From the IMG/VR virus record IMGVR_UViG_3300009011_000001, positions 62,001-126,000 of that record: DNA of 64,000 nt. One strand, 5' to 3'. This document shows, one piece after another, positions 12,096-57,436 of the stretch (positions within the stretch are counted from its first letter, which is position 1; each line of letters starts with the position of its first letter). The stretch is from a virus. A program made the translations under genes and the position numbers. The notes beneath the pieces are model-generated. The model worked only from the letters and a program-made list of their open reading frames with translations, searched no databases and was not told where the DNA came from.

Positions 12096-12138
12096 GCAGG
12101 AGCCTTCGGGCTCCTGCTACCCGCCTTCTTTTTTTTTT
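12096..12138 (+). terminator. Intrinsic terminator with TTCG loop
   Basis: A nine-pair perfect stem GCAGGAGCC / GGCTCCTGC with a stable TTCG tetraloop (12096-12117), followed by a long T tract (about 12127-12138). A textbook rho-independent terminator. Confidence 0.95.
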
Positions 12139-28291: not shown

Positions 28292-28344
28292 CGGCATACA
28301 GCCCGGCGCAATGCCGGGCTGTATGCCGCACTTCTTTTTTTTTT
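28292..28344. terminator. Sixteen-pair perfect terminator between convergent genes
   Basis: CGGCATACAGCCCGGC and GCCGGGCTGTATGCCG form a perfect 16-pair stem with a five-base loop (28292-28328), then ten T bases (28335-28344). It closes both the helicase unit and the convergent minus-strand unit. Its stem is nearly the same as that at 40190-40222. Confidence 0.95.
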
Positions 28345-29863: not shown

Positions 29864-31156
29864 TTACCTCAAGAAGTTCTCAACATCGAGATCGGTTGTC
29901 TGAAGAGCCTTGGCGTGAGCAGAAGCCATCATCCTCGCCATCATGACCGACGGAATGTCCCCAATCATAGAGCCAAGGCTGTCAGGGTACTTGGCGAGCT
30001 TAGCGCCAGCGCAGATTGCGCACATGTCCCCGTTAGGCGTCTTGCAATAGCCAGGGGAGTACATTGGATAGATGCGACCCTCGTACTCCGGCAGGTTTTC
30101 TTCAGTGATCTGAACGATCTTCCCATCGATCAAAAAGTTCCGGCCAACACGGCGGCTCTCAACCTTCTGAATGAACTGCTCGTCGGTCTCGCAGAACTCT
30201 GGGACAATCTTGGCGTTCTGGAACACCCGGTTCATCAAGTCAACGTCTTCACCCGCCAGAGCGGTCAAAGCACCACGGAAGAAGGAACCAGCCCGCAGGC
30301 TGTTTACCATCTCAGGGTAGTAGTTGACGTCAAGACCTTCAAGCAGGCTGTTAGGGATCAGTGTTGCACGACCACCTTCTTCGAACCCGCCCTCAGGACC
30401 GTGAATAAGGAACATCCGCTTAATCGCCGTCTTGAACGATTTGGCTTTCAGCAAGAAGCCTTCAGCTGGGTTGCCCTTGATCATGTCCATGTAGTTCTTG
30501 ATCATGATGTCTTGGATCTTCGCCTGAATAACAGGATCGTCCAATTGACCTTTATGCTCTTCGAACAACTTGTCACGTAATTGCTTGTTGTCAGGCGGCG
30601 GCTGGAGCGACAACTCAGTCATCGACGGGATGAAGATCTCATACCCGCACAGGTCACCGATAGCGCGACCGAGGCGTTTATAATGCTTCACGTAAATCTG
30701 AGCCGGATCTTCTTCGGCTTCAGGCACGTCAGAGATCATCTTGTCGCAGACGATCTTGGCGATCTTCTTGATCTCGACCTGACCTGCTTGATAAGGATAG
30801 CGATCACCCAGTGCGTAAACCAACACGCGACTGTTGAAGATCAGGTCGCCCCAAGTGTTATCCTCAGGACGATCTTCTTTCAGGTTCTCTACATCACCTG
30901 CCCGAAGAGGGCCGCAGTCATCGTGATAGATGAATGGGATCTCATAAGGCTTGGTGTCTTCGAGAACCTCCCAGTCGAACCCGTTGTTGCCGTTCGGGAC
31001 GTAAACCTCAACAGCCTTGTCGGTGTGGCGCAATGTCCAAGGTTTGGGCTCCCCGGGAATCTCACCGATAACAGTGGTCATCGCCCGGAGAATCCATTCT
31101 CGGTTGTAGTGCGCCTGTGCCTTCATAGACCCGACGAAGTAGTCATGCCTATTCAT
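29864..31156 (-). CDS. Second RNA polymerase beta-prime-like C-terminal subunit (probably virion RNAP)
   Basis: A 430-residue protein with the same region order as bacterial beta-prime C-terminal half. EGLDVNYYPEMVNSLRAGS then FFRGALTALAGEDVDLMNRV corresponds to bridge helix/trigger loop. It is followed by RRVGRNFLIDG, and YCKTPNGDMCAICAGAKLA, a degenerate version of the CxTxxGxCxxCYG zinc block, then IGDIPSVMMARMMASAHAK in the place of GVIAAQSIGEPGTQL. It is clearly distinct from the protein at 24135-26108, so the phage encodes two RNAPs, as phiKZ does. Position after the helicase matches phiKZ gp80, a virion RNAP subunit injected to transcribe early genes. GGAG six bases upstream of ATG 31156. 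Confidence 0.82.
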   Translation of the reverse strand: MNRHDYFVGSMKAQAHYNREWILRAMTTVIGEIPGEPKPWTLRHTDKAVEVYVPNGNNGFDWEVLEDTKPYEIPFIYHDDCGPLRAGDVENLKEDRPEDNTWGDLIFNSRVLVYALGDRYPYQAGQVEIKKIAKIVCDKMISDVPEAEEDPAQIYVKHYKRLGRAIGDLCGYEIFIPSMTELSLQPPPDNKQLRDKLFEEHKGQLDDPVIQAKIQDIMIKNYMDMIKGNPAEGFLLKAKSFKTAIKRMFLIHGPEGGFEEGGRATLIPNSLLEGLDVNYYPEMVNSLRAGSFFRGALTALAGEDVDLMNRVFQNAKIVPEFCETDEQFIQKVESRRVGRNFLIDGKIVQITEENLPEYEGRIYPMYSPGYCKTPNGDMCAICAGAKLAKYPDSLGSMIGDIPSVMMARMMASAHAKALQTTDLDVENFLR

Positions 31157-32039
31157 CTACGTCTCCAAACATCGGTTGATAATGTGGCGTAAGCTTCACG
31201 CGTAACTGTTCTGCCTGCCGACGCATTTCGGCGTCGTAATACAAATCATCCAGCCAAGTGGACACGCCGATCATGGCGCTTTCGAAACTCTCGCACGAGA
31301 TAACCGACAAAGAGAAAAGGTCCTCAACAGCTTTCTCGACGGAGCAATCCATCAGCGTGACAACGTTAGCGGCGTAGAGCGATTCGAGACTCAGACCCAA
31401 CCCTCGGTCAGCCTTACCCAGCTCCGCACCCAACGTCCCAGCGTTAGATTTTACCAAATGATTCAATCGTTTGAGTAATGGAGCCGTTGCCAAGCTGGCC
31501 GAACGGTCAGAAATGTCCTGCTCCATCGATTCTGCGCAGAAGCGTCTGACCCGTCCACTGAAGGCATCGCTCACACGAGCAACCTGAGTGAACCAGTCAT
31601 CTTCTGAATAAGTGCCCATGAGATCAAGAATCGCGATGAGTGTCTGGACGGTATCGTCACTTGCATCAATCGCATCAATAACCAACTGAGGGAATTCGGT
31701 CGGATCAAACTTGAGAATGATGTCACAGGCTTCCGTCAACATTGCCAGTGGGATGTCGGGATCAAACTCGACTCCGCAATTGTTGAGGCAGGTCTCGGCG
31801 CCGATGCGCAGGATCTGATCTACAGAAACAACGATTTCTGCCTGATCGACAATCTGTGAATCCATTTGCTGATAAAGAACATCAAGCTCCTGAAGGTGAC
31901 CTTGAAAGTTCACGGAAGAGAGGAGCATGGCAAGCTCTACAAACTCTTCTTCCAATTCTGGAGTACAGCGCCCACGGACGATTTCTCGTACCGTGGACTC
32001 TGTGACATTATCTTCAACTTCAGCTTGTACATCACTCAT
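31149..32039 (-). CDS. Hypothetical protein, 296 aa
   Basis: I start at ATG ending 32039 (GGAG nine bases upstream); a longer frame to 32168 would run into the divergent gene at 32133. Acidic, leucine-rich and largely helical, no motifs. Its 3' end overlaps the RNAP subunit gene by eight bases, so it is the first gene of that operon and is translated with it. It may be a virion protein or RNAP partner; unknown. Confidence 0.75.
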   Translation of the reverse strand: MSDVQAEVEDNVTESTVREIVRGRCTPELEEEFVELAMLLSSVNFQGHLQELDVLYQQMDSQIVDQAEIVVSVDQILRIGAETCLNNCGVEFDPDIPLAMLTEACDIILKFDPTEFPQLVIDAIDASDDTVQTLIAILDLMGTYSEDDWFTQVARVSDAFSGRVRRFCAESMEQDISDRSASLATAPLLKRLNHLVKSNAGTLGAELGKADRGLGLSLESLYAANVVTLMDCSVEKAVEDLFSLSVISCESFESAMIGVSTWLDDLYYDAEMRRQAEQLRVKLTPHYQPMFGDVDE

Positions 32040-32132
32040 GTATAAAGACTCCAGAAACGTCGTATAAATCTTATTGATAATTCGGCCCACATTCGGGCGT
32101 TTGACAAAATATTCATAATAGAGGTCGAGGAC

Positions 32133-32621
32133 ATGGGTAAAAAGAAAAGTAAGCAGGGGGGATTCCAAGCGCGCGGAACATCACCTCTTCAAAATTGCAT
32201 CCGTAATGAGCGGTCAGTTCTGAAAAGCAGCAGTAAGCTGGATGCGTCGATTGCAGACGCCGCTAAAATTCTGGTCGAGTTGCCGGCCGGCATGAGCGAA
32301 CTGAAACGCTCAGGTCACGAAGGTCGCATCCCGGATCTCATCGCGCTGAACCGATCCACCGCCCGTGACCTCGACGGTTTTGTTGCTGAGAAAGTAAAGC
32401 TGGATAAGACGCTGCAGTCTCACGTCGCCAGCCGTCCTTCCGATATCTCCGAACTGGCTGATTATAATAGCCGTACGCTGAGCATCGGTAATGACTTCGT
32501 TCAACTCGGCCAGAAGATGATCAGCACCGTCGGTAAGAGCACCGAGCAGATCATCAACATCCTTACACCAGAAGCTGACGAGCCGAGTGTCGCGCCCGTC
32601 CTTGAAGAGGCAGTAGTCTGA
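32133..32621 (+). CDS. Hypothetical helical protein, 162 aa
   Basis: GAGG upstream of ATG 32133; the stop overlaps the next ATG (TGATG). Basic N-terminus (MGKKKSKQGG), then a long helical, coiled-coil-like body with regular hydrophobics (about 35-145). First gene of a two-gene structural-looking unit; possibly a tail or baseplate assembly partner of the next gene. No known family recognised. Confidence 0.75.
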   Translation: MGKKKSKQGGFQARGTSPLQNCIRNERSVLKSSSKLDASIADAAKILVELPAGMSELKRSGHEGRIPDLIALNRSTARDLDGFVAEKVKLDKTLQSHVASRPSDISELADYNSRTLSIGNDFVQLGQKMISTVGKSTEQIINILTPEADEPSVAPVLEEAVV

Positions 32622-34453
32622 TGACCGACGAAACTACCGGCATTGGCGCAGAAGGCGCCGATAACGATACCGGCACTCCTTTGAACGCAGCGGAGGGTAG
32701 CTTCCATGCCGACGATGTACATGATCCGGCTAACGCCTCCGACGATGATTTCAATGTTGCCGCTGCCGAAGAGAACCCACCCGAAGCTCCGGCACCAGTT
32801 GCATCTGCGCCAGTCGGTGACAACATCCAGGACGAACTTCCTCAACTGCCTGAAAACCCGGCGGATGACGAACCAGAAGAAATCTACTCCGGCGACTGGA
32901 ACCCAGTCCCTGGCGTAAGTATCGATCAGGCTCCGATTACTGAGCCGATGACCGATGAGCTTCTGGCCCAGTTCGCCAAGTTTGGTAAAGTAGTTCTGAC
33001 GAACATGAACCTGCCGGAAGTTCTGCAGCTCGATCAGATCCTGCGTCTGCGCATCATGGTCGCTCAGCGCGATCGCTACGACCGTATCAACAAAGGTCTG
33101 CCGGCTGACAGCTTCATCGAAATCGATATGCCGCAACTTGGCAAGATCTACATGACCGATGAAGAGCAGCGTGCTCTGAATCTGATCAACGATTTCAAAC
33201 GTCAGGTGGCGTTCAACCACATCGGCGACATTATCGAAGACGACGAGAAAGCAACGAACCGTCCGATGGTCGATGGCCAGCCCATCATGATGGGCCTGGC
33301 TTCCAACCCAGGTAATAACGATGGCCTCGCCGCCATTCGTGAAGATCTGGGTCTGGGCCACAAGATCGCCGTTCCTTTCTGGGCAAGTGGTTTCCACGCC
33401 CGCATGGCAGCGCCGGGTGCGTTGGCGCAGATCAGCCTCGATACCCAGCTGGGCCAAGAGAAGATCCGTGAAGCATTGGAATCGGCCGGCTACGCTTTGG
33501 CAGCGCCTGCGGTATTCCTGAACCGCGAAATCACCGATCATGCGATCAAGCACTTGATCTCGACTACCCTCGGTACTGTCGATGCGAAGACCATCAAGGA
33601 AACGCTGTCGATCCTCGACTTCGATCAGATCGTTACGTCGCTGGCTTATGCCACGTATCCAAAAGGTTTCCCTGTTACTCGCCGTTGCGTTAACAGCGCA
33701 CTGAACTGCGATGGCGAAATCACCGACCTGATGAACATCAACCGTATGGTTATTGTTCTTGAAGAACGGCTGGATCAGAACCAACTGCGGTTCATGTCCA
33801 AGCGTGGCGGTAACAGCGTCGTTGACCTGAAGAACGTCAAGGCGTATCAGGAGAAGATGCGTCCGAACATCAGCCGCTACGTTGAGCTGAAGCCGGGTAT
33901 TCGCCTGAAGCTACGCATTCCGACTATTGCTCAGTACGAAGCTACCTCCACAGCGTGGATCGACAACATGACGGCGGAAGCCAAAGCGTTGATCGGCACC
34001 AATGCTCGCGAAGAAGATCGTCAGAACTATCTGGTTCGCGCACAGGCCGTTTCGACGGTGATGGCGTACGCTCACTGGGTTGAAGCAATTGTCCGTCAGG
34101 GCGCTGAACTGGAAGACGAGCCGATCGTTGTTAAAACCCGTAACCTGGGTGAGAACGCAACGCCGGATCAACAGTTCGAAGCCGATCGTGAGATCGACGA
34201 GTTCCTGCGTGACTTCGCATCCAGCCCTGAGCTGACTCAGTTGTTCACGGCCGCGCTGGAGAAATTCATCGCTGCAATGACCATTACCTGCGTCTGCCTG
34301 CCGAAAGTGCATTGCCCGAAATGTGGCCAGCCTATCGACAAGGACACCGGCTCCAAGCAAGACCACCCAGAGCTGGTTACCATTAACCCAACCGAGTTTT
34401 TTTTTACCCTACTCCGCCGCAAAATCGCAAGTGCATTGCGTACGACCAACTAG
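32621..34453 (+). CDS. Probable virion structural protein, 610 aa, with zinc ribbon and T9 frameshift site
   Basis: The N-terminal 110 residues are acidic and Ala/Pro-rich (disordered). The rest is globular, and near the C-terminus is CVCLPKVHCPKCG, a likely zinc-binding knuckle. The reading frame passes through nine consecutive T bases (34397-34405, read as FFF) and stops 16 codons later, ending TLLRRKIASALRTTN. The -1 frame continues open for 161 more codons (see the next entry), so two forms of about 610 and 756 residues may be made. The zinc site and tail-assembly-like arrangement suggest a baseplate or tail assembly protein, but I recognise no family. Confidence 0.7.
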   Translation: MTDETTGIGAEGADNDTGTPLNAAEGSFHADDVHDPANASDDDFNVAAAEENPPEAPAPVASAPVGDNIQDELPQLPENPADDEPEEIYSGDWNPVPGVSIDQAPITEPMTDELLAQFAKFGKVVLTNMNLPEVLQLDQILRLRIMVAQRDRYDRINKGLPADSFIEIDMPQLGKIYMTDEEQRALNLINDFKRQVAFNHIGDIIEDDEKATNRPMVDGQPIMMGLASNPGNNDGLAAIREDLGLGHKIAVPFWASGFHARMAAPGALAQISLDTQLGQEKIREALESAGYALAAPAVFLNREITDHAIKHLISTTLGTVDAKTIKETLSILDFDQIVTSLAYATYPKGFPVTRRCVNSALNCDGEITDLMNINRMVIVLEERLDQNQLRFMSKRGGNSVVDLKNVKAYQEKMRPNISRYVELKPGIRLKLRIPTIAQYEATSTAWIDNMTAEAKALIGTNAREEDRQNYLVRAQAVSTVMAYAHWVEAIVRQGAELEDEPIVVKTRNLGENATPDQQFEADREIDEFLRDFASSPELTQLFTAALEKFIAAMTITCVCLPKVHCPKCGQPIDKDTGSKQDHPELVTINPTEFFFTLLRRKIASALRTTN

Positions 34454-34890
34454 GAAAGGCGCACATCAACCACGTCGTCTCAATCGACTTCGGGGAAGAT
34501 GTTTCGCCGTATACGCCGGGCACCCACATGTACGACGTCATCTTGAATACCAAGATCGACGATTCAAAATCCAAGCGCCTTGTGTGGCTTGAAGCATACG
34601 ACCAAACCTTCGGTCTGTTCGACCATGAGAAAGATGGCCACCGGCCTGAAAATCAAATGGCAGTCATGCGCATGCATCCGGCTGAGGACATGGCTACGGG
34701 AAACCGTTTGCGTGGATTGATGAAAGAGTTGGTTGCCTGTCGTATTCCCGAGATCACCAACGAACCCCTATCGAGACTCCTCCATTATCCTTTGGATATT
34801 TTGGAAGAGTATTTGGTAGAGGGGCGTAAAGCTCGTGCGCATCAGCAAAAGCTTCAGGATGATCTTGAGGCGGGGTTGAAAGAGAAGTAA
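34405..34890 (+). CDS. C-terminal extension reached by -1 frameshift at the T9 run (or separate gene from ATG 34528)
   Basis: In the -1 frame the sequence is open from the T run to 34890 and looks like real protein throughout, including the 41 codons before the first ATG (34528): YPTPPQNRKCIAYDQLGK and onward. That ATG has no ribosome site, and there is no ATG, GTG or TTG further upstream in this frame; only a non-standard ATC follows the AGGAAAGG at 34452-34459. A slip on T-TTT-TTT would add 161 residues to the upstream protein. A small stem CGCAA/TTGCG lies about 20 bases downstream of the slip site. Alternatives: sequencing error in the homopolymer, or a rare start codon. Confidence 0.6.
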   Translation, partial: YPTPPQNRKCIAYDQLGKAHINHVVSIDFGEDVSPYTPGTHMYDVILNTKIDDSKSKRLVWLEAYDQTFGLFDHEKDGHRPENQMAVMRMHPAEDMATGNRLRGLMKELVACRIPEITNEPLSRLLHYPLDILEEYLVEGRKARAHQQKLQDDLEAGLKEK

Positions 34891-36745: not shown

Positions 36746-38044
36746 CTACCTTAGGTCGGCTGAGAATTCAAAGAAACGGTTGTTAGCAAGGTTTTCCTTC
36801 ATCTGATTCGCACCAAGTGAATGAGCCTTGCCCGAAATCATATCCAGCGTGTACGTCGTGAGCTGGTTGATGACGTTAACGAACGGGTGGATGTTGCTGG
36901 CTTCTTCGTCGATGATCTTGAGGTCAGCGAGAGCCTGCTTGCGCAAGTCTACTGGCAGATCACGATCCTTCAGAAGGTTGACGATTTCGTTACGGATAGC
37001 TCGGATGCGTTGCTGCATCGGAGGGTACACGTCGGCTTTCAGGCCGTAGAAGCTGCCGCTAATAAAGAAGCTAGCGGCAAAGCCAAACGCCAGACGACGC
37101 ATGACGTGCAGGGTCAGTTCTGCAATACCTTTCGACAGAGCAAAACCGTAGGGCAACATAACAACGGTCAGGAGGTTGCTCATCACACCCACCCACATGT
37201 TGTCGTAGCCAGGCTCCGCATCCATCCAGCCTTTTGCTCGTTCCAACTTGCTGAGCGCACGAACCAGATCTTTACCAACCATCCAGCGGGCAGCAAACTG
37301 ATCGGCCATTGCTTCAGCCAACCGTTGATCGTACCAACGGGTGTTGTAGGCGCGCTGCATGCGCTTGACCTGACCTTCCAGCACCAGTGCCGTGATCTCG
37401 CTACTGGACACGTCGCTTGGAATCTTCTGATCGTTCTCAGAGAGCTTCAAGGCACAGCGGGCAAGGGCGAACTTACGGGACTCGCTTTCCTGCATGTCCA
37501 TCCGACCGACCAGCTCGGCGAGGATCACGTTGGTCAGAAGCGTCTGACCTAGGAACTCACAGATCGACCAAGGATGGCCAAGTTCGTGAGTGAAGATGGC
37601 GGCCAGTTCAGCGGCTTCGAAACTACCGTCGAACATCGTGTGGGAAATGCCGCAGCGGAAAGGGATCTTCGAATAGAAGCCAGACACCTTGCCATTCTTA
37701 CGGTCGATCGAACCATTGAGGATCTCGATCGTTTCGAGCTTACCCAGCTCGTACTTGTCCATCATCTCCGACGCCTTCACGTTGATCGGAGAGTAGGCGT
37801 TGAAGTTTGGATCAAGCACGAACATGCTGAAAGCTTTTGCAGCTTTGCTTTCAAGCAGGACTGGAGTAACGAACAGCCCGGTTGCACCACCGACGATCGG
37901 AGTGATCTGTTCGAACAGGGCATCGGATTCAGGCCTTGAGGCTTTTATGTCGATGATTTTCTGAAAAACAGCAGCAATGGCCTTTGGAAGATTGCTATTC
38001 GTTTGAAATGCAATAGCCTCCATCGACTCTTGGAATTGACCCAT
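36746..38044 (-). CDS. M48-like zinc metallopeptidase with membrane-like segments, 432 aa
   Basis: HELGH at residues 153-157 is a gluzincin HExxH zinc site. About 90 residues later, EAMAD (244-248) matches the ExxxD third-ligand motif of M48 (HtpX/Ste24-type) peptidases. Two hydrophobic segments follow at about 284-303 and 318-334, and the C-terminus is charged and helical. It lies in a minus-strand operon with an inner-body-like head protein. It could be a virion-carried or host-membrane-acting protease, or help head maturation; the usual phiKZ head protease is a different serine-type enzyme. GGAG seven bases upstream of ATG 38044. Whether it is active is unknown. Confidence 0.72.
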   Translation of the reverse strand: MGQFQESMEAIAFQTNSNLPKAIAAVFQKIIDIKASRPESDALFEQITPIVGGATGLFVTPVLLESKAAKAFSMFVLDPNFNAYSPINVKASEMMDKYELGKLETIEILNGSIDRKNGKVSGFYSKIPFRCGISHTMFDGSFEAAELAAIFTHELGHPWSICEFLGQTLLTNVILAELVGRMDMQESESRKFALARCALKLSENDQKIPSDVSSSEITALVLEGQVKRMQRAYNTRWYDQRLAEAMADQFAARWMVGKDLVRALSKLERAKGWMDAEPGYDNMWVGVMSNLLTVVMLPYGFALSKGIAELTLHVMRRLAFGFAASFFISGSFYGLKADVYPPMQQRIRAIRNEIVNLLKDRDLPVDLRKQALADLKIIDEEASNIHPFVNVINQLTTYTLDMISGKAHSLGANQMKENLANNRFFEFSADLR

Positions 38045-57384: not shown

Positions 57385-57436
57385 CATACACCGGCTCCCA
57401 TCAGGGAGCCGGTGTATGTTGCTTTCTTTTTTTTTT
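57385..57436. terminator. Fifteen-pair bidirectional terminator
   Basis: CATACACCGGCTCCC / GGGAGCCGGTGTATG perfect stem with ATCA loop (57385-57418) and a ten-T run (57427-57436), between convergent units. Confidence 0.95.

Follow-up and report, generated by a model that had tools for sequence, protein, structure and literature searches.

The 64,000-base window analysed here, a part of the 248,574-base virus record IMGVR_UViG_3300009011_000001, very likely contains a -1 frameshift site at a run of nine T residues (T9), as judged from its comparison with relatives of phage phiKZ. A reading frame of 610 amino acids (aa), referred to below as the 0 frame, passes through this run and ends after 15 further codons and a stop. 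In the -1 frame, positions 34387 to 34890 form an open stretch with 161 codons beyond the run, so that a slip would join 595 and 161 residues into a protein of 756 aa. It is probable that the slip is programmed and yields a short and a long form of a tail or hub assembly chaperone. The position of the T9 run, both frames and the length of the slip product, which a sequence-only reading of the window had proposed, were all recomputed and confirmed; the first ATG of the -1 frame indeed lies at 34528 and has no Shine-Dalgarno sequence (upstream sequence TACGCCGGGCACCCAC). Of the 134 open reading frames (ORFs) of at least 100 aa on both strands of the window, no other combines an X XXY YYZ heptamer close to the 3′ end with a -1 extension of more than 100 codons; the next-longest such extension has 61 codons and belongs to a 104-codon ORF. 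A 161-codon open frame is expected by chance with P ~0.0009 at the base composition of the window.

Conservation of the two-frame layout

For the comparison, 31 annotated phage loci were read and more were added from IMG/VR scans, which gave 80 distinct loci and 7 marine ones. The scans used peptide patterns, of which one, in one scan, included GFF at the site, the others lying elsewhere in the protein. The sequence-only reading had proposed to look for a conserved T run and two-frame layout in homologues of related jumbo phages; these were found in 31 of the 31 loci read and then in the 80 distinct loci, with a variant in the 7 marine ones. The two-frame layout is thus present in 87 of 87 loci with no exception found, and none of the loci examined has both parts in a single continuous frame. 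The hosts of the layout are phiKZ-type, EL, SPN3US, Erwinia, Serratia, Klebsiella, Burkholderia, Vibrio and Halocynthia phages (PhiPA3, 201phi2-1, EL and SPN3US are among them) and metagenomes.

These relatives are distant. With the 0-frame protein as query, tblastn matched 191 phage records, and the 60 matches listed are all giant phages of 223-309 kb at ~20-26% identity; PhiPA3 gp074 as query matched 222 records. The extension as query had no phage match at E 1e-5, and it matches phrog_12109, to which the small ORF next to gp77 of phiKZ belongs (E=2.7e-14). The families of the 0-frame protein, phrog_4585 and phrog_8054, are both of unknown function. Protein identity to the window is 14-26% for all relatives except an independent contig, L001, with 69% aa identity, in which the same T9 lies inside a 28-base identical block, followed by divergence.

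An in-frame X TTT TT[T/C/G] site occurs in all 80 non-marine loci, 8-44 codons before the 0-frame stop. The heptamer is T TTT TT[T/C] in 63 of them, G TTT TTT in 8, A TTT TTT in 6 and of another type in 3, and its first base is T in 64 of the 80. In phiKZ the site reads ACT TTT TTT ACT, and a 165-codon extension gives a fusion of 687 aa. Across the slip, the predicted long form would read ...STFF|YFGGLEVKPDG... in phiKZ and ...GVFF|YPGAPE... in PhiPA3. The first ORF varies between 500 and 690 aa across the family; the -1 extension is uniform (149-180 codons in the 80 loci), and in the 31 loci read its stop lies 341-491 bases beyond that of the 0 frame. The extension proteins can be aligned and share conserved motifs before the first ATG, and the -1 frame is frequently closed by a stop a few codons 5′ of the site.

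The sequencing of homopolymers is prone to error, and the true run could in principle be T7 or T10 with one frame, or the gene could be decaying. However, T9 is found independently in L001, complete phage genomes from many laboratories show the same two-frame layout with runs of T5-T8, and the -1 frame is under purifying selection, as described below. On these grounds a sequencing error was rejected, and we regard error or pseudogene as having a practically negligible probability.

Selection on the -1 frame and the mode of slippage

Entry into the -1 frame was examined in the stretch between the 0-frame stop and the first ATG, GTG or TTG, at loci where the part from the slip to this stop contains no start codon. 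Substitutions were counted in 13 disjoint pairs of relatives and compared by a binomial test. Before any of these start codons, -1-frame third positions take 113 of the 162 differences (P 3e-21), and 85 codon changes are synonymous as against 43 that are not. When the stretch is extended to the first ATG only, 147 of 198 differences fall at third positions, and in the pair formed by the window and L001 alone 7 of 9 do. By these counts the -1 frame before the start codons is under protein-coding (purifying) selection, and the third-position excess before any start codon indicates that the stretch would be translated by ribosomes arriving from upstream.

The site itself is also constrained. Synonymous codon identity between close pairs is ~0.6 upstream of the site and reaches 0.81-1.0 at the slip codons and those that follow. 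In the alignment of 61 homologues four columns are invariant, F594 being one of them; F595 and L597 are near-invariant. The first Phe of the site is encoded by TTT in 80 of 80 loci, a count that is partly by construction as the site was searched as TTT TT, although no non-marine locus failed, versus 27% TTT among the other Phe codons of these genes. Given the invariant Phe and the constant choice of TTT, selection seems to maintain the T run as well as the amino acids.

This evidence bears on whether the small ORF could be a gene of its own, started internally or by re-initiation after the 0-frame stop. Every annotated relative has been given such a start, and the close spacing would allow coupling. 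However, the annotated starts vary widely, between 3 bases ahead of the 0-frame stop and 324 bases past it, the first ATG lies 59-422 bases from the slip site (31 loci), and a Shine-Dalgarno-like core precedes it in only 2 of the 80 loci. Also, purifying selection in the -1 frame sets in before any ATG, GTG or TTG, an HxxxxxFG motif lies upstream of the ATG in the window, and synonymous constraint peaks at the T run. Separate, well-started genes, the arrangement that the sequence-only reading had named as contrary to its proposal, are therefore not borne out, and we consider them very improbable.

In regards to the agent of the slip, the alternative to the ribosome is a phage polymerase that stutters on the T run; transcripts that gained one U (or lost two) would then encode the long protein. 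In the window and in L001 the T9 is long enough for this, and that of the window could in principle support both ribosomal slip and polymerase stutter. Across the 80 loci the run has nine T in 6 and eight in 9, with seven in 43, six in 20 and five in 2. In the 65 loci with runs of five to seven, which often end in C as TTT TTC, one would not expect the polymerase to slip, but both the layout and the Phe-Phe codons persist; short runs ended by C favour a tandem tRNA-Phe slip, and the phase and codon choice suit it too. Transcriptional slippage is accordingly improbable, and on the same comparisons we hold a ribosomal slip to be highly probable.

In the proposed mechanism, ribosomes starting at 32621 would mostly terminate at 34453 and release the 610-aa protein, and a fraction would slip back by one base with tRNA-Phe in the P and A sites on T TTT TTT, read 161 more codons and make the 756-aa form. 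Some observations weigh against such a site. In seven marine loci from IMG/VR contigs (L072-L077 and L079) CTT TTT A replaces the heptamer, although the two-frame layout is kept; as a -1-frame TGA lies just upstream, the slip there must use a poorer site, perhaps by the P site only. The downstream 60 nucleotides show no consistent structure (mean z -0.29, with 4 of 80 below -2; pseudoknots were outside this folding), upstream Shine-Dalgarno-like tetramers are not enriched (13 of 80 versus 104 of 320 controls), and an Rfam search gave no match. Stimulators such as a stem-loop, a pseudoknot or a Shine-Dalgarno-like sequence are not obligatory at all known frameshift sites.

T runs are also found elsewhere in the window. 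Three runs of ten, at 12129-12138, 28335-28344 and 57427-57436, are each preceded by a GC-rich inverted repeat and resemble intrinsic terminators; the T9 at 34397 differs from them in lying within a sense ORF.

Predicted fold and proposed function of the two products

The AlphaFold model of the 0-frame protein has a predicted local distance difference test score (pLDDT) above 80 over most of residues 245-610. Foldseek searches with it returned phiKZ relatives first and then a graded series of myovirus proteins, among which were three matches named 'Baseplate hub assembly protein, bacteriophage T4-like' (E 3.6e-4, 1.1e-3 and 3.9e-3, all with prob 1.00). Their coverage is partial and the target template modelling score is ~0.5, and we read the match as a resemblance of predicted fold and not as proof of family. 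A Foldseek search of the same model against the PDB gave nothing significant. The sequence profile phrog_150, 'baseplate hub', matched weakly in 2 of 61 homologues (best E 0.003), and database annotations name a gp26-like hub assembly protein for DT01 and a baseplate protein for AH06. The sequence-only reading had also spoken of a zinc knuckle. The cysteines behind this name are conserved, the pairs C356/C363 and C565/C568 being near-invariant among the 61 homologues, which suggests a bound metal; the label itself is loose, however, since the pairs are ribbon-like, and zinc would be their presumed ligand.

The extension is modelled as helical (pLDDT 76), and a GxSxxEFLxLPR motif precedes its last long helix. 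Foldseek matched it significantly to unnamed entries or to small ORFs from phiKZ relatives; short proteins of Mu and of myoviruses (e.g. D108 C9DGQ0) came up with E>1 and were not counted. Apart from the weak phrog_150 hits, profile searches with both the 0-frame and the extension family against Pfam, NCBIfam, PHROGs and the PDB found only families of unknown function.

Common to both forms would be a C-terminal core that contains the two cysteine pairs and has a predicted fold of the T4-like hub-assembly type; to this core the long form would add a mostly helical domain, and the efficiency of the slip would set the ratio of short to long form, as it does for lambda gpG and gpGT. In lambda, this ratio is ~30:1 and matters for tail assembly, with neither product present in virions (PMC5009743). 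The likeness to this pair lies in the two-frame layout, in a minor long form with an added C-terminal domain and in the retention of the layout across distant phages. A giant phage with frameshifted tail chaperonin genes is phage G, in which gp181 and gp182 carry the signature frameshift of tail chaperonins and their products were not detected in virions (PMC8570332); phage G differs in that its pair stands directly upstream of the tape-measure gene.

Several differences weigh against a chaperone of the known kinds. The first ORF, with its 500-690 aa and cysteine pairs, contrasts with a G protein of ~140 aa, so that the short form is four to five times as large; the site is T TTT TTY and not G GGA AAG; and profile similarity to the lambda proteins is lacking. 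No tape-measure gene adjoins the pair, the downstream genes of the window being on the other strand and no ORF of the window exceeding 982 aa, and in SPN3US the tape measure is gp239 and the homologue is gp39 (PMC5694885). Pfam and NCBIfam gave no match to a chaperone profile. PF12322 (T4_baseplate), the family of T4 gp26 and gp51, had no match in the genome itself, a search that is uninformative as its control matched nowhere, and none in Pfam scans of the homologues. With no adjoining tape measure, a large short form and no chaperone profile, we file the pair as working like G/GT and not as a member of that family. The tail-chaperone likeness noted in the sequence-only reading consequently holds in kind, through the resemblance of the 0-frame fold to T4-like hub assembly proteins, but not as membership by sequence.

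Compared with T4 gp26 and gp51, the short form has a similar predicted fold but is about twice as large and has no sequence-profile match. We know of no reported frameshift in the gp26/gp51 family. Some studies place T4 gp26 in the hub, and the frameshift could be real with products that are virion proteins of the baseplate or neck, for example a minor form with an extra attachment domain. The resemblance to proteins named 'baseplate hub assembly' or 'baseplate' would fit this, as would the presence in SPN3US particles of the neighbour gp38, which corresponds to the upstream position and is tentatively a tail protein (PMC10052503). However, PMC3004832 lists the T4 hub proteins gp26 and gp51 among assembly chaperones, and in the record of 201phi2-1 gp138 and gp139 are flagged as found by mass spectrometry whereas gp136 and gp135 are not. 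The main texts of the SPN3US proteome papers do not name gp39 or gp40, their protein lists being in supplements. Virion proteins are, in our estimate, unlikely, and the role of a tail or hub assembly chaperone, argued by analogy and also in keeping with the tentatively tail-associated neighbour gp38 in SPN3US, seems reasonably likely. It is a more tentative proposal, which we hold at somewhat under even, that a T4-hub-chaperone-like protein, with a gp26/gp51-like fold and two cysteine pairs, gains a GT-like C-terminal domain by slippage throughout the lineage. If true, T4 hub chaperones and lambda G/GT tail chaperones would form one functional class, and the efficiency of slipping would set tail assembly in phiKZ-type phages.

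Annotation of the gene pair and other features of the window

The direct homologues phiKZ gp77 and PHIKZ076.4, PhiPA3 gp074 and gp073, SPN3US gp39 and gp40, and EL ORF47 and ORF48 have the same site and layout but differ in that they are annotated as separate hypothetical genes. The second ORF has been given widely different starts, with lengths of, for example, 80 aa for phiKZ, 45 aa for SL2 and 153 aa for 201phi2-1. If the frameshift is real, these annotations are misplaced database-wide: two conserved 'hypothetical' genes merge into one frameshift gene in all relatives checked, and PHIKZ076.4 (L103 2850-3092) would go from 80 aa to a predicted 165-codon extension of gp77. Phages similar to phiKZ serve as the model in work on phage nuclei and find use in phage therapy, and most of their conserved genes are without a function. 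The gene pair would acquire a testable role in tail or hub assembly, and a frameshift site would be conserved in phages whose mRNAs arise in a compartment separate from the ribosomes.

Searches of open-access full texts on phiKZ found no report of the site, although most subscription journals and preprint servers lie outside this coverage and its novelty is provisional. The available part of the main recoding review does not mention it, nor do a frameshift predictor paper and a 2026 jumbo-phage review, and the open literature searched identifies no tail-assembly chaperone for the phiKZ lineage.

Table 1. Positions of the frameshift site, its reading frames and associated features in the window, with the predicted short-form end of phiKZ in the last row
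Feature	Position	Strand	Remarks
0-frame gene, short product	32621..34453	+	610 aa; phiKZ gp77 / PhiPA3 gp074 / SPN3US gp39 family
T9 run holding the slippery site	34397..34405	+	Context GAG TTT TTT TTT ACC
Slippery heptamer T TTT TTT	34399..34405	+	0-frame codons 34400-34402 and 34403-34405, Phe594-Phe595
Predicted product of -1 slip at the heptamer	34399..34405	+	Would read FF-YPTPPQ...
-1-frame extension	34405..34890	+	161 codons and stop; phrog_12109 family; only in the predicted 756-aa product
Zone read in both frames	34405..34453	+	From slip to 0-frame stop
-1-frame coding stretch past the 0-frame stop, before the first ATG	34454..34527	+	Third-position excess
HxxxxxFG conserved motif	34471-34494	+	Inside 34454..34527, upstream of the first ATG of the window
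First cysteine pair, C356/C363	33686..33709	+	Near-invariant; putative zinc binding
Second cysteine pair, C565/C568 (CPKC)	34313..34324	+	Near-invariant; 26 codons before the slip; weak Zn-ribbon matches
Upstream gene	32133..32621	+	162 aa; one-base overlap with the 0-frame gene (TGATG)
phiKZ predicted short-form C-terminus			...FFTLAASKSNRMV

The upstream 162-aa gene equals phiKZ gp78 and SPN3US gp38 by position only, not by sequence comparison. On the minus strand, two ORFs at 29864-32168 take the places of an RNA polymerase beta' subunit and of a gp79-like (structural head) protein, and the gene order here, again compared by position and not by sequence, matches that of PhiPA3, 201phi2-1 and phiKZ. 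Also on the minus strand, at 36746-38044, a 432-aa ORF with an HExxH-like motif (FTHELGHPWS) is probably a metalloprotease.
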